From a virus, in IMG/VR virus record IMGVR_UViG_3300030424_000005, positions 1-20,690 of that record: DNA of 20,690 nucleotides. One strand, 5' to 3'. Under the pieces are notes generated by a model. The model ran no database searches and was not told where the DNA came from. It saw nothing but the letters and a program-made list of their open reading frames with translations. Position numbers and translations under genes: made by a program. Below are positions 3,357 to 17,761 of this stretch, piece after piece. Each line of letters opens with the position of its first letter. Within the stretch, counting starts at the first letter, position 1.

Positions 3357-3385
3357 TTGACGGCCGGGCGGGTTTAGCGTACCTT
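3357..3385 (+). promoter_or_regulatory. Strong sigma-70-like promoter (candidate late promoter)
   Basis: TTGACG (3357-3362) and TACCTT (3380-3385) are 17 bases apart, the form typical of housekeeping promoters in alphaproteobacteria. RNA would begin near 3392 and run through a long untranslated leader. The same two boxes, with one base changed, recur at 15451-15479. Confidence 0.6.
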
Positions 3386-3814
3386 CTCAGGCATGGTGGT
3401 TTTGGTGCGTTCGCGCTTCCCCCTCTGGCCCGTTGCGCTTCCCCTGGCGTGACGGGCCGCCCCCTCCAGGTCTACCGCTTAGCCCCTGATAGGACTTGCA
3501 AGGAAACGTCAGGGTGATGCGGTCTGCGGCGAGCCTCGTCTACGTCGCGTTGGGGTGCCAGCCGAATAAGCGGCCCCGATCAATTCAGAGATACCAGCGG
3601 CGGCGCTGAGACGCGCTAGGTTACGCCCACCGGGATACGCGCCGCCCCGTATGGGCTGGGGTGGGTAAGTCGGAACGCCGCTGGTTGCCATTCCAGGCCG
3701 AGCCCACCCCTGGATACCGTGCCCGCCCGGCTTGGCGGGGCTGATGCTTCCCTGCGACGGGATAGCCGTGATGACCTAGAGCCGCCGACGTCATGGGGTG
3801 GCAGATGAACAACG

Positions 3815-3845
3815 AAGCCCGCTGCCTCACGGTGGCGGGCTTTTC
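3815..3845 (+). terminator. Intrinsic terminator before the late genes
   Basis: The stem runs from 3815-3826 to 3831-3842: AAGCCCGC pairs perfectly with GCGGGCTT, and UG/UG wobbles plus CC/GG close on a UCAC tetraloop. It is followed by a short T tract (TTTT at 3841-3844, partly in the stem). It lies 26 bases before the next start codon, so read-through or antitermination is needed to express the downstream genes from the 3357 promoter. Confidence 0.75.
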
Positions 3846-3870
3846 GCATTCCGACATGAGGTGTGACGAC

Positions 3871-4158
3871 ATGCCCATCCGCATCGTGAGCGACAACGGC
3901 ACAGGCGTCGGGACCAAGATCCTCGACGCCGAGACGGGTGCTGACTTGGGCGAGGTTCTGCCTATCACCTACGGAGCCATGCTGGAGATCGGCCCCGTTC
4001 TGACCCTGCAATGCGAGATCGCCATGATCCGCGTTGACACCGTTGCCGGCGCGGTCAACTGGCACATCCCCATGATCGACGGCGACGTGGCAGAGGTCCG
4101 CATGAAGGATGGGCGCGTCATCCGCATCCGGGAAGATGGTGTGCCGGAGGCGGTGTGA
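3871..4158 (+). CDS. Hypothetical phage protein, 95 aa
   Basis: The open frame extends back to 3793, but that would read through the terminator. GAGGTG (3858-3863), seven bases before ATG 3871, fixes the start. The 95-residue product is rich in beta-type residues: an N-terminal MPIRIVSDNG strand, a central Ile/Val-rich sheet-like part, and a closing MKDGRVIRIREDGV hairpin. No family is recognised. It is the first gene after the terminator and so the first expected to respond to antitermination. Its TGA overlaps the next ATG by one base. Confidence 0.65.
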   Translation: MPIRIVSDNGTGVGTKILDAETGADLGEVLPITYGAMLEIGPVLTLQCEIAMIRVDTVAGAVNWHIPMIDGDVAEVRMKDGRVIRIREDGVPEAV

Positions 4159-4355
4159 TGGCAAAGCCCCCGATGCCGGACCCGATAGGCTGGACACCAC
4201 CCCCGCCGCGCGGTGTGGTCATCTACGATCCAGATGAGCGCGCAGCGTACGAGCACGGGAAGCGCGTTGGTACGTTCGCCGGGGCTGTCTTGACGCTGTT
4301 ATGTCTAGTGATGGCCGGGTGCCTTATTGGCCTGGGCTTTTCTCTGAAGGGTTGA
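4158..4355 (+). CDS. Small one-helix membrane protein, 65 aa
   Basis: ATG 4158 is chosen over the in-frame GTG 4155 because GGAGG (4146-4150) is then seven bases away rather than four. The first 38 residues are Pro-rich and polar. Residues 40-62 form a single strongly hydrophobic helix, with a short FSLKG tail outside it. One short membrane helix in an early late-operon gene is compatible with a holin or a related envelope peptide, but such proteins are too variable to assign by eye. The next gene is an even smaller membrane peptide four bases downstream. Confidence 0.6.
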   Translation: MAKPPMPDPIGWTPPPPRGVVIYDPDERAAYEHGKRVGTFAGAVLTLLCLVMAGCLIGLGFSLKG

Positions 4356-4359
4356 CCCC

Positions 4360-4473
4360 ATGACCTCGCACCCGTGGACAGGCTGGGCGGTGGCTTGCCT
4401 GTGCATCGGGGCTGTGTGTGCGGTGGCTGGTGCGGCCTATGTTTGGCGGTTGGGTGATCGGCGGGGGTGGTGA
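4360..4473 (+). CDS. Tiny membrane peptide, 37 aa
   Basis: AAGGG (4347-4351) precedes ATG 4360 by eight bases. The frame gives 37 residues with one hydrophobic helix (residues 8-29, rich in Ala, Val, Cys and Gly) and a basic RLGDRRGW end that would keep the C-terminus in the cytoplasm. It follows another one-helix gene by four bases, and the pair could act together, as two-part holin or spanin systems do (inference). The -35 box and extended part of a promoter for the next gene lie in its last codons. Confidence 0.5.
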   Translation: MTSHPWTGWAVACLCIGAVCAVAGAAYVWRLGDRRGW

Positions 4474-4479
4474 TATACT
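4450..4479 (+). promoter_or_regulatory. Extended -10 promoter for the gene at 4565
   Basis: TTGGGT (4450-4455), an 18-base spacer and TATACT (4474-4479), preceded by TG at 4471-4472, form a good extended -10 promoter. RNA would begin near 4486, so the first stem element of the leader (4492) lies a few bases from the 5' end. Confidence 0.5.
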
Positions 4480-4485
4480 TATTGC

Positions 4486-4564
4486 GCGGATAGGGTAGCT
4501 CCCGAAAAGCGCGTACCCTGCGCGCCTTCCGTGCTTTCAGCAGGGGCGCGAAAGGGTAGCGAGA
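4486..4564 (+). promoter_or_regulatory. Leader with two mutually exclusive hairpins covering the RBS
   Basis: Element A is AGGGTA (4492-4497), B is TACCCT (4514-4519) and C is AGGGTA (4553-4558). B can pair with A or with C. The B:C form extends by CGCGCC (4521-4526) with GGCGCG (4545-4550), and a small TGC/GCA stem lies inside. C contains the likely ribosome site AAGGG (4552-4556), eight bases before ATG 4565. B:C therefore hides the ribosome site, while A:B would free it. No T tract follows, so control of translation is more likely than termination. Confidence 0.5.
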
Positions 4565-5077
4565 ATGGTTCGGGAAGTGGCCGAGGTGGTCTACATCTGC
4601 GATCGTGGACACAGACACAAGGACCGCGAAGTAGCCGAGGCGTGCGACGCCCGGACTCGCGAGAAAGCGGCAAGGGTGCTGGTGGCAGACTGCAAGCGGG
4701 CAGCCAGGAAGGACGCTAGAGCAAAAAGGGTCGCCACCCTCCCGCCCAAAGGAACGAGTGAGCGATCCAGAAATAAGGCCATCAAGTTCATTGCCGCGCT
4801 AGGCGGGCCTGATAAGGCGTCGGCGCTCTCGGAGGCTGACTTTCTGCGGTTGGGTGCTGGCCGGAGGGTCTTGGGTGCCGCCAAGGAGGTGCTGGCCGAA
4901 TCTGGCCTTCACTTCACTGGACATTTAAGTCGAGACGAATGGTCTCGTGTTCTGTCTGCGTTTATGGCGAGGGTGGTCATACGGAAGGGCTTTCTTTTCA
5001 TCGGCCCCAGCGGCAAAGGCGGCGGCGCGCATCTCGGGAACGGGCCGCCCAACCTGACGGAAACAGACGAAGATTGA
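4565..5077 (+). CDS. Unidentified phage protein with own promoter and leader
   Basis: The 170-residue product is basic and mostly helical. It opens with VVYICDRGHRHKD (residues 8-20), which has a Cys-His-His grouping and a second Cys at 27 that could bind a metal. A Lys/Arg/Ala-rich stretch follows (30-75), then a helical core and a Gly/Pro-rich tail. The name ParB, sigma or HTH cannot be supported. What stands out is its control: it has its own promoter and a switchable leader, unlike the neighbours, which suggests that its dose matters. It lies 28 bases before the next gene. Confidence 0.65.
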   Translation: MVREVAEVVYICDRGHRHKDREVAEACDARTREKAARVLVADCKRAARKDARAKRVATLPPKGTSERSRNKAIKFIAALGGPDKASALSEADFLRLGAGRRVLGAAKEVLAESGLHFTGHLSRDEWSRVLSAFMARVVIRKGFLFIGPSGKGGGAHLGNGPPNLTETDED

Positions 5078-5105
5078 CCGCGTGACTTGGTGGTGAGGTG
5101 GTGCG

Positions 5106-5846
5106 ATGGCCCGTGAGTGGTTCAATATCACCCTCGACACCGCCTCGCAGGCCAAGGCGTTTTCCCGCTTGGAGAAGCAAGCCCCGTTCGCCGTCGCCCT
5201 GGCCCTGACACAGACCGCCAAGGACGCGCAGACCCGCATCAAGAAGCTGCTACCTGAAATCTTTGACCAACCCACGCGCTGGACGATCAACAGCACGCAG
5301 GTCACGCCCGCGACTAAGGCTAATCTGGTGGCTGACGTGGGCTACAAGTATCAGGCTGGCCGCTACCTCATCCCTCAGGTTGACGGCGGCGGACGACGCG
5401 ACAAGGGCAGCGAGCGGCAGTTGAAGGGCCAAGCCCTGCTGCCCAGGGATATGCAGTTCGTGCCCGGTGGTGGCGCGCAACTCGACGCCTACGGCAACAT
5501 GCGGCGCGGGCAACTGGTCAAGGCTCTGTCCGCCGTCCGAGGCTTCACCCAGGTCGGCTATAACGCCAACGCCACGAAAGGCCGCAAGAGCAAGGGGAAA
5601 CGCCGGAAGGAACGGTACTTCCTCGCCTCTGAGGACAACCCGCGCACCAAGCACCTGCGGCCCGGCGTGTGGCAGCGGTTCGTGTTCGCCGAGGGTAGCG
5701 CGATCAAGCCGGTGCTGCTGTTCACCCAGCCCGCCAAGTACGAGAGCCGCTTCGATATGGAGGGTATCGTGGCGGAAGTGGTGCGGGAGAAGATGGGCGA
5801 CAACCTCGATGCCGCGATGGTTCGGGCGCTTGGGACGGCGCGGTGA
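5106..5846 (+). CDS. Putative virion morphogenesis protein, minor tail protein Z-like
   Basis: The 246-residue soluble protein begins with a short strand, then the helix AFSRLEKQAPFAVALALTQT (residues 18-37) and a long mixed part. A very basic KGRKSKGKRRKER cluster near residue 159-171 and the closing helices complete it. The pattern of an N-terminal helix AxAxAxxxTAxxxxxxI and a central segment on a Gly-rich insert resembles the minor tail protein Z / head-tail morphogenesis group. I rate this assignment as weak. It would be unusual for such a gene to sit before the terminase. ATG 5106 overlaps no neighbour and follows GAGGTGG (5095-5101). Confidence 0.55.
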   Translation: MAREWFNITLDTASQAKAFSRLEKQAPFAVALALTQTAKDAQTRIKKLLPEIFDQPTRWTINSTQVTPATKANLVADVGYKYQAGRYLIPQVDGGGRRDKGSERQLKGQALLPRDMQFVPGGGAQLDAYGNMRRGQLVKALSAVRGFTQVGYNANATKGRKSKGKRRKERYFLASEDNPRTKHLRPGVWQRFVFAEGSAIKPVLLFTQPAKYESRFDMEGIVAEVVREKMGDNLDAAMVRALGTAR

Positions 5847-5972
5847 TCGTTCGTGTAGGGGCATTGGGTCCCTGTGGATAACCCCGTGTTTGGGGGGAAT
5901 TCGGGCCTCGCACTTTGTCTAGGCATGAGCTTTCCCTAAGGGGGTTCCGCTTCCGGTTGAGGGGTTTTTGAC
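5847..5972. other. Intergenic region before the terminase; candidate packaging site
   Basis: No gene or clear promoter is seen. The 126 bases contain several short G/C-run repeats: CCCC-GTGTTT-GGGG at 5882-5895, CCCTAAGGG at 5934-5942, and GGGGTT repeated at 5941-5946 and 5961-5966. In lambda-like phages the cos site lies directly before the small terminase gene, so this is where it would be expected. No cos overhang can be read from sequence alone. Confidence 0.25.
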
Positions 5973-6467
5973 ATGGCGACACAGGGTGAGGTTGCCGAGC
6001 ATCTGGACCTCTCCGACCGCTCTGTGCGTGACCTAATTTCGCGTGGTGTCTTCAGCAAAACCGGGCGTGGCGCGTTGGATCTGGACGCCTGCCGGGTTTC
6101 CTATCTGCGTCACCTCAGGGAGCGCGCGGCGGGCCGGGCATCCGATGCCGCCGAAGCGGAAGGCCTCAACATTGAAGTTGAGCGCGCCCGCCTCGCCAAA
6201 GAGCAGGCCGACCACTACGCCATGAAGAACGCCGAGCGGCGCAACGAGCTTGTCGAGTACGCCCCCTGGATTGACGCGATCCGCCAGATCATCGCCATGA
6301 CGCAGGGCCGCCTCCGCAGGGTGCCCGGCCAGGTCCAAGGCCTTGACCCGAAGATGAAGGCGCGAATTGCCGACGCACTGGATGATGCCTTGGAAGACTT
6401 GACGTTGACGCGCGTCGAGGAGGAGCTTGGACGCGATGGCGAAGACGGCGGCAGCGAGGACGATTGA
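5973..6467 (+). CDS. Terminase small subunit, Nu1-like
   Basis: The 164-residue product has the plan of lambda Nu1. A winged helix-turn-helix fills the first 45 residues (QGEVAEHLDLSDRSVRDLIS at 4-23, then an SKTGRG turn and DLDACRVSYLRHLR). A Lys/Glu/Ala-rich coiled helix (about 60-90) follows, then a C-terminal part that would contact the large subunit. This protein binds the packaging site on phage DNA and hands it to the large subunit. GAGGGG (5959-5964) is eight bases before ATG 5973. The gene overlaps the large terminase gene by 32 bases, typical of this pair. Confidence 0.85.
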   Translation: MATQGEVAEHLDLSDRSVRDLISRGVFSKTGRGALDLDACRVSYLRHLRERAAGRASDAAEAEGLNIEVERARLAKEQADHYAMKNAERRNELVEYAPWIDAIRQIIAMTQGRLRRVPGQVQGLDPKMKARIADALDDALEDLTLTRVEEELGRDGEDGGSEDD

Positions 6468-8457
6468 GACGTTGGCCGTTCGCGGCGGCCAACTTGTCGT
6501 TGATGGCGCCGCCCTCATTCTTGCTGCCCTGAAGCCGAAGCGCACCCTTCCCCTGGTCGAGTGGGCCTCGAACAACGTCCGGCTTGAGGCCGGCAAGCGA
6601 TACCGTCCCTGGCCTCTGCAGCAAGGAATCCTTGAGGCCCTGGGCGACCCGGACGTGACGCAAGTCACCGTCATGAAGTCGTCGCGCATCGGTTACAGCG
6701 AGATCGTAAACGCCTACCTCGGCTGGCTCATCGACCAGCGGCCTTTGCGCGTCCTAGTCTATCAGCCGACGATTGACGACGCCGAGGACTACAGCAACAC
6801 CGACCTCGTGCGCCTGCTCAACTGGCCTGCGATTCGTCAGGTCGTCCAGTACAAGACCCGCGACAGCCGCAACAAGATCCGCGCCAAGGTCTTTCCGGGC
6901 GGCTCGATCAAGGTCAAGGGCGCGAACAGCCCGAAGGAATTTAGGCGCGTCACGGCCGATGTGGTCATCCTTGAGGAGCCGGACGGCTATCCTCCGACCG
7001 CTGGCCTTGAGGGCGACCAAGCCGAGCTTGCCTTCAAGCGGTGCATCACGTCCGACGAACCGAAGAAGGTGGCCGGCTCGTCACCAACCGTGAAGTTCGA
7101 CCCGCAGACCAACAAGGGCAGCAAGATCGAAGGCCTGTTCCTTGCGGGCACCCAGGAATACCGCTATGTGCCTTGCCCTCACTGCGGCGAAATGCAGCGC
7201 CTCACCCTGGGTGACGGCACCGGCCCCGGCCTGCGATGGGAGCCGAAGCGCGCACCGACCAAGGCTTGGTACGTCTGTCTCAATGGCTGCGTGATCGAGG
7301 AGCAGCACAAGCCCGACATGGACGCGGCCGGTGAGTGGCGCGCGTCAGCGCCGGAGCATTGGCCGCACCGCTCGTTCCACGTGTCGGCCCTCTACAGCCA
7401 ATTCGCCAATGCATCGTGGCTTGAGGTCGCCCGCGAGAAAGTCCGCTGCGGCAAGAACCCGGCGAAGATGGTGACGTTCGTCAACCAGACCTTGGGCGAG
7501 ACTTGGGAGATTCGAGGCGAGGCGCCTCCGTGGCGCATCCTCTACGACCGCCGCGAAGACTGGCCCATGGGCTCTGTCCCGATGGCCGTCCGGTTGCTGC
7601 TGGCCGGCATCGACGTGCAGAAGGACCGCATAGAACGCTACGTGTGGGGCTACGGTGAAGACGGCCAGCAATGGCTTATCGACCACACTGTGGTGACCGG
7701 CGACCCCTTCAACGACGCGACGTGGACAAAGCTCGACGCGATCATGGGCGACACGTTCACCCACGCGGCTGGTGCGGAAATGAAGCCGTTCAAGGTGGCG
7801 ATTGATACCGGGTTCGCCACCACGCAGGTTGAAAAGTGGGCCCGGAAGTACGGCCGATGGGTCGTTCCAGTCAAGGGTGCCAACACGTTGCAGGCCCCGG
7901 CGTTCCGGTGGGGTCCGGTCAATGACGTGTCCGCCAACGGAAAGCGGCGCAAGACAGGCATGCAGATCGGCCACGTCGGCGGCCATATCCTGACCCTGGA
8001 GCTTTACGGCTTTCTCGGCCAGGAACCGCCGACCGCCCAGCAAGTCGCAGACGGGCAGGGTTATCCGCCGGGCTATGTCCACCTTCCGACTTGGGCGACC
8101 GAGGAAACGTGCAAACAGCTTGTTGGCGATCAGTGGATGGAAGACCGGGCCGAGTGGAAAAAGGTCCATGCGACCGAAGCCCTCGACTGCTGGAAGTACC
8201 CCCGTGCCGTGGCCGTCATGCTGGGCATGGACCGATGGAAGCCAGCCAAATGGGCGCAGCTACGGAACGCGCTTGGGGCGACTGAGGAAAAGCCTCAAGC
8301 CCTGCCACCGCCACCCACAGAACAGCAGACCCACCCCAAGCCGCCCGCCCCCCAGCAGGCGGCTTCTTCTTTGCCCGCGCCCCGGCAGCCTGAACCAAAG
8401 CCCAAAAAGCGCGGGTGGCTAGGTGGCGGCAGTCGTGGGCGCGGCGGCTGGATATAG
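6436..8457 (+). CDS. Terminase large subunit, GpA family
   Basis: The 673-residue protein is a GpA-type DNA-packaging motor and nuclease. Visible parts are the Walker A-like VMKSSRIGYSE (Lys at about 81) as in lambda gpA, the Walker B-like VVILEEPDGYP (Glu at about 180/181), a zinc knuckle of Cys 247/250 and Cys 281/285, and the nuclease part with LLAGIDVQKDRIER, KVAIDTGF and HATEALDCWKYPRA carrying acidic residues. The last 60 residues are Pro/Gln-rich and basic, probably a flexible tail for the prohead. ATG 6436 is chosen. TTG 6427 is in frame but only one to two bases from the purine-rich GAGGAGGAG (6417-6425). Confidence 0.95.
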   Translation: MAKTAAARTIETLAVRGGQLVVDGAALILAALKPKRTLPLVEWASNNVRLEAGKRYRPWPLQQGILEALGDPDVTQVTVMKSSRIGYSEIVNAYLGWLIDQRPLRVLVYQPTIDDAEDYSNTDLVRLLNWPAIRQVVQYKTRDSRNKIRAKVFPGGSIKVKGANSPKEFRRVTADVVILEEPDGYPPTAGLEGDQAELAFKRCITSDEPKKVAGSSPTVKFDPQTNKGSKIEGLFLAGTQEYRYVPCPHCGEMQRLTLGDGTGPGLRWEPKRAPTKAWYVCLNGCVIEEQHKPDMDAAGEWRASAPEHWPHRSFHVSALYSQFANASWLEVAREKVRCGKNPAKMVTFVNQTLGETWEIRGEAPPWRILYDRREDWPMGSVPMAVRLLLAGIDVQKDRIERYVWGYGEDGQQWLIDHTVVTGDPFNDATWTKLDAIMGDTFTHAAGAEMKPFKVAIDTGFATTQVEKWARKYGRWVVPVKGANTLQAPAFRWGPVNDVSANGKRRKTGMQIGHVGGHILTLELYGFLGQEPPTAQQVADGQGYPPGYVHLPTWATEETCKQLVGDQWMEDRAEWKKVHATEALDCWKYPRAVAVMLGMDRWKPAKWAQLRNALGATEEKPQALPPPPTEQQTHPKPPAPQQAASSLPAPRQPEPKPKKRGWLGGGSRGRGGWI

Positions 8458-8466
8458 GAGCCTCAC

Positions 8467-8682
8467 ATGGCGGTCACGCAAGCCCAGCTAAACGCCTTGG
8501 TCGCGGCCTGGGCGTCCGGCGTCCTGACCGTCAAAGAGGGCGACAACCAAACCACTTACCGGACGCAGGACGACATGGAGCGGGCGATTGCCCGCATGTC
8601 GTCCGCGCTTGGCGTGTCCAGTCCGATCAGCCCGCCGAAGCCGACCAAGCGCACATCCCTGACCCGCTTCCGCAAGGGCTGA
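8467..8682 (+). CDS. Head-tail joining protein, gpW family
   Basis: The 71-residue product matches the small lambda gpW group in length and plan. It has an N-terminal helix (ALVAAWASGVLT, residues 10-21), a two-stranded hairpin with a Lys-Glu-Gly turn, a second helix (DDMERAIARMSSAL, 35-48) and a basic C-terminal tail. In lambda, gpW sits below the portal and is needed before the tail can join. AGGAG (8456-8460) lies six bases before ATG 8467. It sits between the terminase and portal genes, exactly as in lambda (A-W-B). Confidence 0.85.
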   Translation: MAVTQAQLNALVAAWASGVLTVKEGDNQTTYRTQDDMERAIARMSSALGVSSPISPPKPTKRTSLTRFRKG

Positions 8683-8686
8683 CCGC

Positions 8687-10192
8687 ATGAAACTCAACAT
8701 CCTGGATCGCACAGTGGCGTTCTTCTCGCCCGGTGCGGGGTTGAACCGTGCGCGCCAACGGGCAGCCATGGAGACGGTGCGCTCCTACGAGGCCGCGCGT
8801 CACTCCCGGCGAACTGATGGCTGGATTACGTCCGGCACGTCGGCCGCTGCGGAGGCTGGCCCGGCAATCGCTCGCCTGCGCGCAAATGCCCGTGACATGG
8901 TCCGCAACAACCCGTATGCCGCCCGCGCTGTCTCGATCATCGCATCTAACGCGGTCGGCACTGGCATCGAGGCCAAGAGCCGCACGGGCGACGTTGAGCT
9001 TGACAAGAAAGTCGATGCGCTCTGGAAGAAATGGGCGGAAGACGAGTGCGACGCAGACGGCCAGCTTGATTTCGCCGGCCTGCAACATCTGGCGGTGCGG
9101 ACCATCGTAGAGGGTGGCGAAGTCCTCTGCCGATTCCGGCCGCGCCGCGCGGCCGACAACATGGAGACTGTGCCACTTCAGCTTCAGTTGCTCGAAGGCG
9201 ACTATCTCGACACCAGCCGCGACACGTCGGCCACGGCGTCCGGCGGCTTTGTACGCCTGGGCATCGAGTTCGACGCCATCGAGAACCGCTCAGCCTACTG
9301 GCTTTACCGGCAGCACCCCGGCGACGCCACATTGACCTCTCGGGCGGGCATGGAAAGTGTCCGCGTTCCAGCCGAAAACATCGCCCACATCTACAGCAAG
9401 GATCGCCAGGGCCTCCCGCGTGGCGTGACGTGGTTCGCCCCCGTCATGATGCGGGTGCGTGATCTTGATGAGTTCCACGAGGCCGCGCTCGTCAAGGCCA
9501 AGGTCGAGGCGTGCTTGGGTGTCGTCGTCACCCGGCCGGACAATGAAGACGCCGACCCTATCGGCGTGGAGCGGACAGACGAAAACGGCCAGCCCATCGA
9601 AGGCATGGAGCCGGGCATGGTCGTCTACACCAAGCCGGGCGAATCCATCGAAGTCATCAACCCGCAAGGCCATACGGCATACGACCCCTACACCCTGCAA
9701 ACGCTGATGGCTGTCGCGTCCGGCATGGGTATCACATACGACCAGCTTACAGGTGACCTCCGACAGGCCAGCTACAGCAGCCTCCGCGCCGGAAAGATTG
9801 AGTTCCGCCGGAACATGGAGCGGTTCCAGTGGCAAACGCTCATCAAGATGCTGTGCAAGCCGACCCGCAAGCGGTGGATTGCACAGGCTATCGCGGCCGG
9901 CAAGCTGCCTGACCGGAAAAGCGGATACCCGACCGAGTGGGTGGCCCCGAAGTTCGAGCGCATTGATCCGCTGAAAGACCTGAAGGCCGACATTCTGGAG
10001 GTCCGGGCCGGCGGTATGACGTGGGATCAGATGGTCGCCCGCAACGGATACGACCCGCGCGAACAACTTGAGGCCATCGCCAAGCACAACGCCGACTTGG
10101 ACCGCCTGGGCATCGTTCTTGAGACGGACCCGCGCCGCATGTCGGCCGGCGGGCAGGCGATACCGCAGCCCGAGACAGAATCACCCGACTGA
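8687..10192 (+). CDS. Portal protein, lambda gpB family
   Basis: The 501-residue protein has the signature of the lambda-type portal. The N-terminal part IARLRANARDMVRNNPYAAR (residues 61-80) leads into an SNAVGTGI turn, and the core has repeated Asp/Glu-rich strands (for example a DYLDTSRD segment). Further on come the AASGMGITYDQLTGDLRQAS-like clip segment, a long wing helix and an acidic C-terminus. Twelve copies would form the ring through which DNA enters. AAGGG (8674-8678) is eight bases before ATG 8687, and only four bases separate it from the gpW-like gene. Confidence 0.93.
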   Translation: MKLNILDRTVAFFSPGAGLNRARQRAAMETVRSYEAARHSRRTDGWITSGTSAAAEAGPAIARLRANARDMVRNNPYAARAVSIIASNAVGTGIEAKSRTGDVELDKKVDALWKKWAEDECDADGQLDFAGLQHLAVRTIVEGGEVLCRFRPRRAADNMETVPLQLQLLEGDYLDTSRDTSATASGGFVRLGIEFDAIENRSAYWLYRQHPGDATLTSRAGMESVRVPAENIAHIYSKDRQGLPRGVTWFAPVMMRVRDLDEFHEAALVKAKVEACLGVVVTRPDNEDADPIGVERTDENGQPIEGMEPGMVVYTKPGESIEVINPQGHTAYDPYTLQTLMAVASGMGITYDQLTGDLRQASYSSLRAGKIEFRRNMERFQWQTLIKMLCKPTRKRWIAQAIAAGKLPDRKSGYPTEWVAPKFERIDPLKDLKADILEVRAGGMTWDQMVARNGYDPREQLEAIAKHNADLDRLGIVLETDPRRMSAGGQAIPQPETESPD

Positions 10193-13582: not shown

Positions 13583-14338
13583 ATGCCGAGCACTGAGAAC
13601 TACTCTATCTTCAAGGCCGACGTGTTCCTCGGCCGGTATGGGTCCACCGACAAGAAGCACATCGGCAACGTCCCGGCGCTGTCGTATGCGCCCGAGGTCG
13701 AGACGCTGGAGCATTACAGTTCCATGGCCGGCGTGCGCGAAAAAGACGCCGAGGTGACGACCACCACGGCGGCCACCCTGTCCATGACCCTGGACGAAAT
13801 CACGTCCCGCGCCATCGCCATCGCCATGTTGGGCGAAGAGGTCGTTTACGAGCGCGTCGAGGCTGCCGGGCAAGTGGCTGTGTTCGAGGGCGTGAAGGCT
13901 GGCGACAAGTTGGCTCTGCCGCATGGCGTGGTGTCCGGTGTCACCATCACCGATGGCACCGCCGTTACCCCGGTGGACTACACCCTGACCACCCACTACA
14001 CCGTGGACGCGGCGGCCGGCGTCATCACCATCGTCGCCATCCCCGCCACCGCCGACGATACCGTTGAGGTGGCCTACGACGCCGACGCCATCGTGGCCGG
14101 CACCCGCAAGGTCATCAACCTGCTGGCCGACACCACCGCCGAATGGTCGCTGTTTTCTGTCGGCACCAACGACGTGGGCAAGCGCCTGCGCATCGAAGTT
14201 GGCCGCTTCAAGATCACCCCGTCCGGCGAACTCGGCCTCATCACCGATGAGTGGGCCACCCTGGAGGTCGAGGGCTCCGTGTTGCGCGACACCGCGACTC
14301 CCGGCTACCCGTTCGGCCGTGTGATCGAGTTGAATTAA
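13583..14338 (+). CDS. Major tail tube protein
   Basis: The 251-residue protein has the composition and order of a siphovirus tail tube subunit. The N-terminus reads NYSIFKADVFLGRYG, then GNVPALSYAPEVETLEHYSS. A Thr/Ala-rich part with VTTTTAATLSMTLDEIT (58-74) follows, then an insert of beta strands at about 90-165, and a C-terminal part ending YPFGRVIELN. The insert, rich in Thr, Val and Asp, may be a small surface domain of the Ig-like type found in many tail tubes. GGAGG (13571-13575) is seven bases before ATG 13583. Its TAA overlaps the next ATG. Confidence 0.85.
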   Translation: MPSTENYSIFKADVFLGRYGSTDKKHIGNVPALSYAPEVETLEHYSSMAGVREKDAEVTTTTAATLSMTLDEITSRAIAIAMLGEEVVYERVEAAGQVAVFEGVKAGDKLALPHGVVSGVTITDGTAVTPVDYTLTTHYTVDAAAGVITIVAIPATADDTVEVAYDADAIVAGTRKVINLLADTTAEWSLFSVGTNDVGKRLRIEVGRFKITPSGELGLITDEWATLEVEGSVLRDTATPGYPFGRVIELN

Positions 14339-14760
14339 TGGCAACCCTGCTCGACATCGTGCCGCAGACGCGCTCCGTGCCCGTCTGCGGCGTCAACCTG
14401 ACTGTGCAGGGCGTGGCCTTGCCGGATCTGGTGTCCATCGTCGTGCGCTTCCCGGCCTTGACCGGCGTCCTGTCCGGCAAGGGTGTGGATGTTACGGCCT
14501 TGGTCGGCTTGGGTCGCGAGGTCTGCGGTGCGGTCATTGCCGCCGCGACGGGCTGCCCTGGCAATCCCGAAGCCGAGGCCAAGGCCGCGTCCCTGCCGGC
14601 CATGACACAGGTGGACATCGTCGCCGCCGCCGTGGACCTGACCTTTCCGGGGGAGCCGGTGACGGTGGCGGTGGAACGCCTGGCCGCCATCGTCGCAAAT
14701 CTGGCCGGGGCAAGCAGCGAGACGGCCTCGAAGTCCTTGCCGAAGCGGCCGAAAGGCTGA
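14338..14760 (+). CDS. Tail assembly chaperone, N-terminal (G-like) product
   Basis: The true start is ATG 14338, overlapping the tail tube stop by one base. The frame extends further upstream only as a shadow of the tube gene. The 140-residue product has a strand-rich N-terminus, the LVSIVVRFPALTGVLSGKG part (residues 39-57), a helical middle, and a SETASKSLPKRPKG end at 14758-14760. Its place between tube and tape measure genes is that of the lambda G product, which holds the tape measure protein during tail assembly. Coding-quality sequence continues in the -1 frame past its stop. Confidence 0.7.
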   Translation: MATLLDIVPQTRSVPVCGVNLTVQGVALPDLVSIVVRFPALTGVLSGKGVDVTALVGLGREVCGAVIAAATGCPGNPEAEAKAASLPAMTQVDIVAAAVDLTFPGEPVTVAVERLAAIVANLAGASSETASKSLPKRPKG

Positions 14761-14933
14761 TCGCAGCCGGCCACCGTGACGCCCTGCACTACACGCCCCG
14801 GCAGATCGTGGCGTTCTCCACCTTGCTCGACAAACGCGAGCGGACGGAGCGGGCGGCGCGGTTTGCCGACATGGCGATGAGCCACCCGAACAAGGGCATC
14901 AAGAAGTACCTGGAGGGGCTGGCGAAGGGTTAG
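14721..14933 (+). CDS. Tail chaperone extension (T-like), probably by -1 frameshift
   Basis: In the frame one base back, the sequence is open past the upstream stop to TAG 14931-14933. It reads as real protein from about 14721: LEVLAEAAERLIAAGH, then DALHYTPRQIVAFSTLL, and a charged KRERTERAARF helix. It has no ATG, GTG or TTG at a usable position, so a -1 shift from the G-like gene is the simplest way to make it, as in lambda G-GT. No canonical X XXY YYZ heptamer is in register. The A run at CCG AAA GGC (14749-14757) is the only weak candidate. The start coordinate is approximate. Confidence 0.6.
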   Translation, partial: DGLEVLAEAAERLIAAGHRDALHYTPRQIVAFSTLLDKRERTERAARFADMAMSHPNKGIKKYLEGLAKG

Positions 14934-15229
14934 GCGTCGTCTTCGCCAAACAGCACTGCACGAATGCGGTCTATTTCATCGCTCGCTGCTTCGAGGTCGT
15001 TGCGGGCTTCATCGTAGATCGTATCGTCGTAGGCCCATTGGGAGAGCTTGTCTGCGGCCGCCGTCAGCGCGGCGCGTTCCGCTGTCGCGCGCAGGCCAAG
15101 GGAGATCAACTGGCGGATAGCCTCGGCCCGGCTTGGGACGCGGTTCGTAAAGCGCCACTCGTCGATAGCGTCCGCCTCAGAGGCAGTCACCATGATCGGC
15201 AGCCGGACATCCTTAGGCTCGTCCATCAT
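14930..15229 (-). CDS. Ribbon-helix-helix protein with long C-terminal helix, 99 aa
   Basis: On the minus strand, start 15229 (ATG; 15226 is a tandem alternative) to TAA at 14930. The N-terminal part, VRLPIMVTASEADAIDEW (residues 8-25), then RVPSRAEAIRQLISLGL (29-45), is a clear ribbon-helix-helix DNA-binding fold. The long acidic helix-rich remainder has spaced Leu/Ile/Ala and could form a coiled coil, as in P22 Mnt. The start overlaps the end of the next upstream minus gene by 17 bases, so they are coupled. Its stop overlaps that of the T-like chaperone gene (convergent). Confidence 0.8.
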   Translation of the reverse strand: MMDEPKDVRLPIMVTASEADAIDEWRFTNRVPSRAEAIRQLISLGLRATAERAALTAAADKLSQWAYDDTIYDEARNDLEAASDEIDRIRAVLFGEDDA

Positions 15230-15401
15230 TTTCCAAACTGCCCGGTGACTGCTCGCACTCAAGCCCGCGCAGAACGAGGCGGCGGACAGCTTCCGCGCGG
15301 GAGGGTAGGTCAGCCTGGACGCGGCGCCAGTCGTCAACGAGGCGCAGAAAATCAGGTGTTACCCGCATGTTAAAGGTTTCAGTCTTCTGCGCGTCAACCA
15401 T
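15213..15401 (-). CDS. Ribbon-helix-helix repressor, 62 aa (Mnt-like position)
   Basis: ATG 15401 is chosen. The frame is open further back to 15476, but that would cross the promoter and operator region. A GGTGG lies a few bases upstream of the start. Residues 9-14 (TFNMRV) would be the beta ribbon, PDFLRLVDDWRR helix A, and LPSRAEAVRRLVLRGL helix B. The QADLPSRAExVRRLV segment is nearly identical to the divergent gene at 15513, so the two are paralogues. It is the first gene of a leftward operon with the 99-residue RHH gene and lies beside the overlapping divergent promoters. Confidence 0.75.
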   Translation of the reverse strand: MVDAQKTETFNMRVTPDFLRLVDDWRRVQADLPSRAEAVRRLVLRGLECEQSPGSLENDGRA

Positions 15402-15435
15402 TCCTGCCACCGACTTCGTCAACGGGAAAAGTAGG

Positions 15436-15464
15436 CATGTATCACAAGCGTTGACGTGCCACAA
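15436..15464 (-). promoter_or_regulatory. Leftward promoter of the RHH pair
   Basis: Read on the minus strand, TTGTGG (15464-15459), 17 bases, then TACATG (15441-15436) with TG one base before it (15444-15443). RNA would start near 15429. Its -35 lies inside the first inverted repeat and overlaps the zone of the rightward promoter. Confidence 0.4.
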
Positions 15465-15479
15465 AGAAAGTGGCACCTT
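15451..15479 (+). promoter_or_regulatory. Rightward promoter of the RHH-antirepressor operon
   Basis: TTGACG (15451-15456), 17 bases, then CACCTT (15474-15479); RNA would start near 15486, 27 bases before ATG 15513. It differs by a single base in its two boxes from the candidate late promoter at 3357-3385. Its spacer is filled by an inverted repeat. Confidence 0.55.
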
Positions 15480-15492
15480 GCCACTTGTGGCA
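15456..15492. promoter_or_regulatory. Two perfect inverted repeats: likely RHH operators
   Basis: Site 1 is GTGCCAC (15456-15462), seven bases, GTGGCAC (15470-15476). Site 2 is TGCCAC-TT-GTGGCA (15479-15492), a perfect palindrome. The same half-site TGCCAC thus occurs four times in 37 bases. Site 1 fills the space between -35 and -10 of the rightward promoter, and also covers the leftward -35. Site 2 covers the rightward -10 and start. Confidence 0.65.
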
Positions 15493-15512
15493 CATCGGTA
15501 CGGAGCAATCTA

Positions 15513-15668
15513 ATGGAGAGGACTTTCACGATGCGGGTTCCTGATGAGTTTGTTCGGAAGGTGGATGAGTTGCGACGGTCGCAGGCGGATCTTCCGAGCC
15601 GGGCAGAAATCGTCCGCCGCTTGGTCGAGAAGGCCACCTCTGAATCGGTGGCGCAGCACGCCGCTTAA
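15513..15668 (+). CDS. Arc-like ribbon-helix-helix protein, 51 aa
   Basis: ATG 15513 is set by GGAG (15502-15505), seven bases before it. The upstream extension crosses the operators. The 51-residue product is all RHH: TFTMRV (4-9) as ribbon, then helices at PDEFVRKVDELRR (10-22) and LPSRAEIVRRLVEKAT (26-41), with a short polar tail. Arc of P22 has 53 residues and the same plan. It is the first gene of the rightward operon that goes on to two antirepressor-like genes. It likely represses its own promoter through the inverted repeats (inference). Confidence 0.8.
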   Translation: MERTFTMRVPDEFVRKVDELRRSQADLPSRAEIVRRLVEKATSESVAQHAA

Positions 15669-15673
15669 TTATC

Positions 15674-15709
15674 GGCCCGACGTGGTGCTACCAACACCGC
15701 CGCCGGGCC
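15674..15709 (+). promoter_or_regulatory. Intercistronic hairpin between the RHH and Rha-like genes
   Basis: GGCCCG (15674-15679) pairs with CGGGCC (15704-15709), and inside it GGTG (15684-15687) pairs with CACC (15695-15698). No T tract follows. It lies six bases after the RHH stop and could limit translation or transcription of the next gene. In P22 this intercistronic place holds the sar antisense RNA. Confidence 0.4.
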
Positions 15710-15733
15710 TAACCAGACACATGGAGAAGACCC

Positions 15734-16765
15734 ATGCAACAGGCTGAGAACAACCATATACCGCAGAGCGCGGGAATTCCTGTGGAAAAAGCGCACTGTT
15801 TTTCACCGGGCGCCCTGGCCGTGATCGACGGTGAGCCGCGCATGAAGGACACCGACATTGGCGCCGCTCTGGGCATGGCGCAGCCGCGCAACATCCGGGC
15901 CATCATCGACAAGAATCGGGCGGAACTGGAGCGGTATGGATTGGTGCACGTGGCGCGTTCGCCAATCACAAGCGGGAAGGGCCGCGTTCAGGAAGTCACC
16001 ACCTACCACCTGAACGAAGGCCAAGCGATCCTGCTGTGCATGTTCAGCCGCACGCCGACCGCCGCCGCCGTCCGTCACCAGATCGTGACCGTGTTCATGG
16101 CGTGGCGCCGGGGGGAACTGGAGAAGGTGCCGGTCAAGGCGCATACCCGGCGGAAGGCTGCCCCGAAGGTTGCCCACCCTGCGGCCTCCAAGGAAGGTGT
16201 CGCGGTCGCAGTGATCGGCGGCGAGGTCGTCACCTTCGACACGAACGACTACGACCTCCGTGATGGCGATTGGGCGGTCGTCCTGATGGGCAGCAAGTTC
16301 GCCAAGATGCAGTTGACCGAAACTCAGGGCCGCAGCAACTCCGGGTGGGAGTCGCCGCGCCGGGGCTGGGTGGACTACACCAGCGGGTACTATGGCAGCG
16401 GGCCGCGCGAATACGCAGAGGTGAGGATCGTGGGGCGTATGCTGTCGGCTGTCCGCGCGACCGCCGCACCCGCGATTGCCGCACCCCAGGTGGACGCGGC
16501 CCGCTTCGACCCGAAAAACCGGCATCTGGTGTCGTTCGGTTCGGACGGGAAGATGGAGATCAAGGCTGTTGGCCCGGACGCCTGCGTCGTGAGCGGCGCC
16601 AACGAAACCAACCTCTACACCTTCCTGCGGGAGTTCGTGCCGGTGGAAAACCTGCCCGTCGCCTTTGACGTCATCTGCCAGCGCATGAAGGCCCTGGCCT
16701 GCCGTGAACTGGGCAAAAAGAACAACGGCCGTCACCTGTCGGTCGTGAAGCAGGCGGTGGCGTAG
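15734..16765 (+). CDS. Phage antirepressor / Rha-like regulator, 343 aa
   Basis: The N-terminal domain (residues 35-127) has the plan of Rha / antirepressor-type phage regulators. DIGAALGMAQPRNIRAIIDK (41-60) is a helix-turn-helix-like part, then a NRAELERYGLV strand, a GKGRVQEVTTYHLNEGQAIL segment (81-100) and VRHQIVTVFMAW (113-124). A basic linker follows. Residues 165-241 have a VVTFDTND...RDGDWAVVLMG...EVRIVGRMLSAV order that recalls S24 repressor ends, but no Ser-Lys pair is certain. The C-terminus (250-343) is unassigned. GGAGA (15723-15727) precedes ATG 15734. It is second in the operon, the place of P22 ant. Confidence 0.75.
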   Translation: MQQAENNHIPQSAGIPVEKAHCFSPGALAVIDGEPRMKDTDIGAALGMAQPRNIRAIIDKNRAELERYGLVHVARSPITSGKGRVQEVTTYHLNEGQAILLCMFSRTPTAAAVRHQIVTVFMAWRRGELEKVPVKAHTRRKAAPKVAHPAASKEGVAVAVIGGEVVTFDTNDYDLRDGDWAVVLMGSKFAKMQLTETQGRSNSGWESPRRGWVDYTSGYYGSGPREYAEVRIVGRMLSAVRATAAPAIAAPQVDAARFDPKNRHLVSFGSDGKMEIKAVGPDACVVSGANETNLYTFLREFVPVENLPVAFDVICQRMKALACRELGKKNNGRHLSVVKQAVA

Positions 16766-16855
16766 ATCGCCAAACCTGAGCCGCCGCCTGCTCTCCCAAC
16801 CGGCCCCGTTGGCGCGGGGTCGATCTACCAACCGCCTGAAATGGAGGCAGTTAGC

Positions 16856-17761
16856 ATGGGCAATATGACCCACGTCCTGAATTACAACAACACTGAGATT
16901 CGCGCGGCCGGAGAACGGCTGAACATGACGGATATGTGGAAGGCAGCGGGAGCCGATCCTTCACGGAAGCCTGCCGAGTGGCTGCGCTCTGCTGATGCTG
17001 TTCGCTTCATCGAGTTTTTGGCCGAGACGATGGGAATAGAAGTGGGAAATTCCCAACTCCAATTGGTCAAGGTGTCGAAGGGCGGGCGTGGAATTGGGGG
17101 CTCCACTGCCGCCCACTGGCAGATCGGCCTTGCCTACGCCAAGTACCTGTCGCCCGAGTTCCATATGTGGTGCAACACGGTGGTCCGCGAGCGCATGGAA
17201 GGTCGGGGCGTTGCTGTCCCGGAGGTCGGTGAATTGGCGCGGCGCACCGATGGTATCGTGCGTACCACCATCCATAAGGTGACGGGAATCGAGCGGGCCG
17301 TTGAAGGTATCGGGACGGTGATGCGGCTGATGTCCGATGCTGTTACGGATCAGGACTCGCGCATCGGCCAGATTGAGCGGGCGCTGCTCGACACAGCCGA
17401 TATCGTCAAGACGCTGGTGGTCGCCAACGACCCGCGCGTTGCCGCCCTGAGTCGGGTGAGCCAAAAGGAACTCTTGGAAAAAGCGAAAGTGCCGAGCAAG
17501 GGGCGATCTTCCATCAACCGCCGGTTCGCGTACCATCTGCCGCGCTACGCGATTTCCAACGGCGTGTTGCCGGACAGGTGCCCGCACTCCGGCACGTTGC
17601 TGTACCCGCGCGACTTGGCCGACCGCTTCATGAAGGAGAAGGGCAGCGGGTGGGTGCGCGACCACATGGCAAAGGTTTTCGGCCAGGGAGTCCTTCAGTT
17701 TCCCGACCGCCGCAGTGGGCCGCCGCAGCCGGAAGGTGTTGGCGAAGGGCTATCTACATAG
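16856..17761 (+). CDS. KilA-N domain protein, 301 aa
   Basis: ATG 16856 is used, eight bases after GGAGG (16843-16847). The in-frame ATG at 16841 overlaps that site. Residues 1-115 form a KilA-N domain with NMTDMWKAAG (23-32), KPAEWLRS (38-45) and HWQIGLAYAKYLSPEFHMW (87-105). A helical linker rich in charged residues (about 120-215) could be a coiled coil, followed by a small C-terminal domain with LLYPRDLADRFMKEKG. KilA-N proteins are DNA-binding phage regulators or antirepressors. The stop is overlapped by 12 bases by the convergent minus-strand gene. Confidence 0.85.
   Translation: MGNMTHVLNYNNTEIRAAGERLNMTDMWKAAGADPSRKPAEWLRSADAVRFIEFLAETMGIEVGNSQLQLVKVSKGGRGIGGSTAAHWQIGLAYAKYLSPEFHMWCNTVVRERMEGRGVAVPEVGELARRTDGIVRTTIHKVTGIERAVEGIGTVMRLMSDAVTDQDSRIGQIERALLDTADIVKTLVVANDPRVAALSRVSQKELLEKAKVPSKGRSSINRRFAYHLPRYAISNGVLPDRCPHSGTLLYPRDLADRFMKEKGSGWVRDHMAKVFGQGVLQFPDRRSGPPQPEGVGEGLST

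Follow-up and report, generated by a model that had tools for sequence, protein, structure and literature searches.

Gene content of the locus

The window analysed here is a stretch of 20,690 nucleotides (positions 1–20,690 of IMG/VR record IMGVR_UViG_3300030424_000005) that belongs to a 39,082-base phage contig. Within it, three genes for predicted ribbon-helix-helix (RHH) proteins are found beside an antirepressor-like gene (ant) and a KilA-N gene, in the following order:

14930–15229, minus strand: RHH-3, 99 aa, R-L-P-I-M-V type, overlapping the end of RHH-L; weak match to RHH_1
15213–15401, minus strand: RHH-L, 62 aa, recognition strand T-F-N-M-R, in the Mnt position; phrog_4738 transcriptional repressor (9e-6)
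15402–15512: divergent intergenic region between RHH-L and RHH-R, 111 bp; start codons at 15399–15401 (minus strand) and 15513–15515 (plus strand)
15513–15668, plus strand: RHH-R, 51 aa, recognition strand T-F-T-M-R, in the Arc position; RHH_1 (6e-4), phrog_4738 (0.0018), own-genome profile match
15674–15714, plus strand: conserved, covarying hairpin with CUAACC behind it; model R1 scores it at 49.2 bits, the window being among the sequences from which R1 was built
15734–16765, plus strand: antirepressor-like protein (Ant), 343 aa; Bro-N (4.7e-4, below the gathering threshold), phrog_130 anti-repressor Ant (1.1e-4)
16841–17761, plus strand: KilA-N protein, the next gene, on the same strand as ant; PF04383 (7e-12)

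RHH-L and RHH-R share 66% identity over 35 aa, and RHH-R is preceded by GGAG at 15502–15505. For RHH-3, a longer open frame (14930–15337) matches phrog_4738 at 5.5e-7. The AlphaFold model of RHH-L (pLDDT 80.7) has an extended segment at residues 1–15 and helices at residues 16–28 and 35–51, with no strand assigned in this single-chain model. Together, the model and an alignment of 33 relatives give the short beta strand, two helices and conserved recognition strand of the RHH fold. A Foldseek search with the RHH-L model matched no solved structure, PDB sequence searches with the RHHs returned chance matches only, and tblastn of the RHHs on annotated phage genomes found no match. In alignment A2, which was used only for searching, the RHH-R row holds one mistyped residue (I to A). 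A type II toxin-antitoxin operon was considered and rejected, as the locus has no toxin gene and the neighbours are RHH-3, the antirepressor-like gene and KilA-N.

The matches of Ant to Bro-N and Phage_pRha are weak and fall under the curated cut-offs, while Ant shares 44% identity over 164 aa with an RHH-controlled relative in locus L018. DNA matches among annotated phage genomes were confined to the KilA-N gene, which matched a Paracoccus phage. The module is flanked by late genes, namely a pre-tape-measure gene (14251–14760, plus strand) and a long open frame extending from ~18310 as far as the end of the window. Behind the pre-tape-measure gene comes a short open frame in a different reading frame (14808–14933, plus strand), as expected of a tail-assembly frameshift product. 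The rest of the contig encodes a CI-like repressor (HTH_3 and S24), a small HTH protein divergent from it and a Rha/ANT protein, and a near-identical viral record (L002) carries an integrase. Because of the CI-like repressor and the integrase, the phage is probably temperate, with immC-like and immI-like regions as in P22.

Structure of the operator

The intergenic region between RHH-L and RHH-R contains the following elements:

15436–15441, minus strand: putative leftward −10, TACATG (weak), at 17-bp spacing and preceded by TGA, extended −10-like
15439–15445: degenerate box GTATCAC, adjoining the putative leftward −10
15451–15456, plus strand: putative rightward −35, TTGACG
15456–15476: O1, perfect inverted repeat GTGCCAC-N7-GTGGCAC
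15459–15464, minus strand: putative leftward −35, TTGTGG (CCACAA on the plus strand), proposed from position only
15470–15484: inverted repeat GTGGCA-CCT-TGCCAC, centred on the putative rightward −10
15474–15479, plus strand: putative rightward −10, CACCTT (weak), proposed from its 17-bp spacing only, with 2/6 consensus matches
15479–15492: O2, perfect inverted repeat TGCCAC-TT-GTGGCA, whose core contains CTTGTG (15484–15489)

A first-pass annotation, made from the sequence alone, had described an operator of four half-sites covering overlapping divergent promoters. All four TGCCAC half-sites are present, at 15457–15462 (plus), 15470–15475 (minus), 15479–15484 (plus) and 15487–15492 (minus), and O1, which it had reported as a perfect inverted repeat, is exact; an imperfect counterpart, TGTCAC-N8-GTGGCA, lies in locus L061. 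The annotation had also placed O1 exactly within the rightward spacer, which is incorrect, since the repeat shares one base with the −35 (its last) and three with the −10 (its first three). Its second palindrome, said to cover the rightward −10, holds for GTGGCA-CCT-TGCCAC, while O2 touches only the last base of the −10. Beyond the half-sites, CACAAG at 15443–15448 mirrors CTTGTG at 15484–15489, and inverted-repeat arms of 26 nt (15437–15462 and 15470–15495, 73%) span the operator.

TGCCAC is not enriched in the window overall (20 occurrences, 16 expected). What is unusual is the packing: in the whole phage contig, GTGGCA alone among 6-mers reaches four or more copies within 40 bp, and the box cluster is unique in the phage; any 6-mer cluster of that density arose in 2 of 100 locally shuffled windows. 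Allowing up to one mismatch, there are five GTGNCAC boxes (at 15439, 15456, 15470, 15478 and 15487), a number reached in 1 of 100 shuffles. The operator copy is also the only GTGCCAC-N(5–9)-GTGGCAC in the 3.9-Mb host assembly. A scan of viral contigs for GTGCCAC-N(3–9)-GTGGCAC gave mainly unrelated hits; many of these come from marine phages and have an 8-bp spacer. Several apparently unrelated viral contigs (L183, at 3375–9003, L210, L213, L216 and L240) carry several copies each of GTGCCAC-N8-GTGGCAC, often with TGCTC nearby.

Related modules and the divergent promoters

Searches of viral contigs and genomes revealed four other loci where a divergent pair of RHH genes adjoins an antirepressor-type gene:

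L322: KilA-N; intergenic region 110 bp
L302/L320: Bro-N; intergenic region 111 bp
L083/L321: Rha and ANT; intergenic region 115 bp
L003: Rha; intergenic region 108 bp

In each of these, a palindrome is present twice, or nearly so (TGTCATGAC, TGTGCGCACA, TGTAATKACA and TGTAATKACA). All four modules also have the conserved central TTGAC. They differ from the window in their box sequences and antirepressor types, and only two RHHs were seen in each, against three in the window. The R1 hairpin model matched none of the four.

The distance from TTGAC to the start codon of the antirepressor-side RHH is 65 bp in L322, 72 bp in L302, 70 bp in L083/L321 and 64 bp in L003, and 62 bp in the window. In shuffles of the four modules, TTGAC fell 54–70 bp before the ATG with a probability of 0.015–0.019 each, L302 (72 bp) lying just outside this band. 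This conserved position is the best evidence that 15451–15456 is a real −35.

The remainder of the proposed promoter pair fared less well. Both −35 hexamers, TTGACG and TTGTGG, are located as first annotated, but the sigma-70 match is poor, and by consensus both the rightward −10 and the leftward promoter as a whole are weak. The mutually exclusive use of the two promoters and the two-state switch envisaged in the first-pass annotation are hypothetical. The two −35 elements are offset by 8 bp, as in several relatives. A sigma-70 scan requiring 9/12 matches found no promoter, and a weighted scan ranked other pairs above the proposed ones. One such pair, TTGTGG-18-TCTAAT (15485–15514), scores 5.8 against 4.7 for TTGACG-17-CACCTT and could instead be the rightward promoter. 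We consider this quite unlikely, given that its transcripts would start inside the RHH-R coding region, downstream of both its ATG (15513) and its beta strand, and that TTGAC is the element conserved across the modules. In many relatives (L015, L017, L018, L063, L065 and L080), ~6 nt separate the end of the RHH promoter's −10 from the ATG, and the repressor mRNA may be leaderless in relatives such as these.

Correspondence between recognition strand and operator box

The reading of bases by beta-strand residues is established for RHH proteins (PMC3325190). We grouped 136 RHHs, non-redundant in their upstream regions, by residue x of the F-x-M-R strand; the sequences were clustered by upstream similarity only, so some residual relatedness remains in the counts that follow. 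Upstream of Q-type proteins, TGTN4ACA was found in 26/29 cases, with 0.8 expected from shuffles, and all 23 E-type proteins had at least two TACG/CGTA sites. Fisher's tests of Q against E gave 2e-8 and 8.5e-13. GATATC-like sites occurred upstream in 4/4 I-type (FIFS) rows. For the N/T type, to which RHH-L and RHH-R belong, GTGN(1–2)CAC was present in 4/4 rows, which amount to only three independent loci (the window, L061 and L302); it was found in one of the 52 Q or E rows, that one being L302's own partner. The closest relative, L061 (F-T-M-R, from a Geminicoccaceae MAG), has TGTCAC-N8-GTGGCA upstream (L061 139–158) and has flanking blocks in common with the window. Across relatives, residue x is thus a predictor of the upstream box, with few cases for N/T. 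In a related chromosomal RHH family (RLQIML..PSRAAAVRELL; L056–L060 and L097–L110), TGAGTAA/TTACTCA often lies upstream.

Since residue x predicts the box and both proteins have T-F-[NT]-M-R, RHH-L and RHH-R probably use the same boxes, and the GTGNCAC boxes are most simply read as predicted sites of both. Against this explanation stands the irregular spacing of the boxes (14, 8 and 9 bp), which differs from that in L061. Alternatively, the two inverted repeats might serve different proteins, with O1 bound by RHH-R and O2 by RHH-L. The unlike spacers (7 in O1, 2 in O2) would fit such an arrangement, as would the P22 precedent, in which Arc and Mnt each have an operator of their own at a comparable location. 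We regard it as doubtful, although with some weight, because the half-sites are identical, the two proteins share T-F-[NT]-M-R, and one sequence likewise accounts for both boxes in the other modules of the alphaproteobacterial type.

CTTGTG lies upstream of all three R-x-P-x-M RHHs outside the window that face an intergenic region (L047, L077 and L360), and of L391, compared with 7 among the 132 remaining rows; the window operator makes up two of these seven. RHH-3 belongs to this class, so the outer CACAAG (15443–15448) and CTTGTG (15484–15489) are probably RHH-3 sites. The grouping of the half-sites into two palindromes is accordingly one reading only, and the RHH-3 reading of CTTGTG overlaps with that of O2.

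The repeats could also act as RNA, as a minus-strand intrinsic terminator or leader hairpin (AAGTGGCA-AGG-TGCCACTT, then TCTTT). A terminator scan does detect this stem at 15486–15468 of the minus strand, among 4 found where 1.8 were expected from shuffles, but its U tract is poor, it takes in only two of the four half-sites, and it is not kept in L061. Moreover, the half-site cluster occupies the place where relatives have box pairs matched to their RHH. We hold an RNA role to be highly improbable.

A covarying hairpin in the leader of ant

The hairpin-CUAACC element between RHH-R and ant is found in ~40 related loci, in the leader of a gene divergent from an RHH of the F-x-M-R type (for example, L017 2382–2420 and L344 2884–2922, both minus strand). 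Compensatory changes occur at 12/12 hairpin pairs among 41 distinct sequences. The hairpin has a covariation score of 0.65, compared with 0.19 in shuffled and at most 0.11 in slid controls, which are the relevant comparison because the R1 set was first chosen by a folding criterion that biases the percentage paired upward. By our count, only 7 of the 426 paired cells are G-U, and this near absence suggests that folding is required of the complementary strand as well.

The window's own hairpin has no match in Rfam. Its relatives in L008 and L036 match the whole of RF00043 (R1162-like plasmid antisense RNA), including the hairpin, CUAACC, a second hairpin around GGAG, and AUGGCU, although below threshold (37.1 bits in L008, against a gathering score of 55). 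In L018, the hairpin precedes the window-like antirepressor and is divergent from a Q-type (F-Q-M-R) RHH. This arrangement suggests that RHH-R may have entered the window's locus between the promoter and the leader. Two further features were seen: a tandem repeat (unit GCGGCCACGGCGAGCGGCACTC-like) at L376 11592–11683, running into the end of the phage contig, and a tRNA gene (37.4 bits) directly behind the RHH gene at L013 2654–2738 (minus strand).

A model for the control of ant

We propose, with a probability of roughly 0.7, that this region serves as operator for an immI-like "ant moron" in a probably temperate alphaproteobacterial phage, in which RHH-L, RHH-R, RHH-3 and the hairpin would control ant in the style of P22. 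The proposal is built on the sequence elements, the gene order, conservation, the residue-to-box association and the hairpin covariation; from these we infer binding, promoter use, the direction of regulation, antisense control and the target of Ant.

The beta strands of RHH-L and RHH-R differ by one base-reading residue (TFNMR and TFTMR), which is why both proteins are expected to bind one set of GTGNCAC boxes (15456–15493). Being on and just past the rightward promoter, the occupied boxes would keep RHH-R, the leader hairpin and ant silent, and weaker outer sites would extend to the leftward promoter. The prophage state would have RHH-L, possibly together with RHH-3, on the boxes in the manner of Mnt, keeping RHH-R and ant off. 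Once ant is expressed, RHH-R would accumulate alongside it and shut the promoter again, as an Arc-like autoregulatory brake. RHH-3, co-encoded with RHH-L, would probably read the outer CACAAG/CTTGTG pair, and the hairpin between RHH-R and ant would probably add post-transcriptional control of ant, in place of the sar RNA of P22. Ant would then inactivate the phage's own CI-like S24 repressor, its likely target.

A simpler possibility is that the RHHs merely repress their own operons and that the antirepressor-like gene is passively controlled, with no switch. Most RHH relatives are indeed lone genes that face a small unrelated gene divergently and follow the same box logic. However, divergent RHH pairs beside antirepressor-type genes recur at five loci, and relatives of Ant are divergent from an RHH in L018, L390, L391 and L398, which makes autoregulation alone unlikely.

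The locus may further represent a portable cassette of alphaproteobacterial phages. Such a cassette would combine one compact operator, two paralogous RHHs on identical boxes, a third RHH on the flanks and an ant leader hairpin folding on both strands for sense-antisense RNA control, with the F-x-M-R residue serving as a cipher for changing immunity specificity. We put this forward tentatively, judging it somewhat short of an even chance. The residue-to-box correspondence provides testable binding predictions for more than 60 uncharacterised phage repressors, and the covarying hairpin is a possible second control layer on antirepressor synthesis.

Comparison with P22 immI and lambda

The immI region of P22 is a textbook switch, the parts of which are known mainly from P22-like phages. 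The first-pass annotation had likened the position of O1 to that of the Arc operator in P22 Pant. Gene order and spacing resemble those of P22 immI. The P22 order, mnt leftward and arc-ant rightward, is reproduced in the window on the same strands. The intergenic region is 90 bp between mnt and arc and 111 bp in the window; the gap between the rightward RHH gene and ant is 68 bp in P22 and 65 bp in the window; and TTGAC lies 68 bp before the RHH start in P22 and 62 bp in the window. In both phages, the rightward RHH gene encodes ~50 residues, the module has a late-gene location, and an immC-like CI repressor is present.

The components themselves differ. P22 Arc and Mnt match PF03869 at 5e-31 and 4e-30, whereas neither RHH-L nor RHH-R matched the Pfam Arc/Mnt families (PF03869 and PF11423) at E 0.1. 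P22 Ant matches PF10547/PF10548 (P22_AR), while that of the window is weakly Bro-N-like, and the window has a third RHH, unlike P22. By sequence, the locus is therefore immI-like in its logic, yet outside the Arc/Mnt family. Insertions of the immI type have been termed ant morons, and that of P22 includes the antisense RNA sar (PMC2629481). In the window, the corresponding gap between RHH-R and ant holds an RNA element of another type, the hairpin.

P22 has two private operators, whereas the window has repeated copies of one box. The window would reach the immI logic with RHHs from outside the Arc family and other antirepressors, and with operators predicted to be shared rather than private. 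In lambda, the two repressors CI and Cro act on shared operator sites between divergent promoters, and the window is predicted to work alike, with ribbon-helix-helix repressors in place of the helix-turn-helix proteins of lambda.
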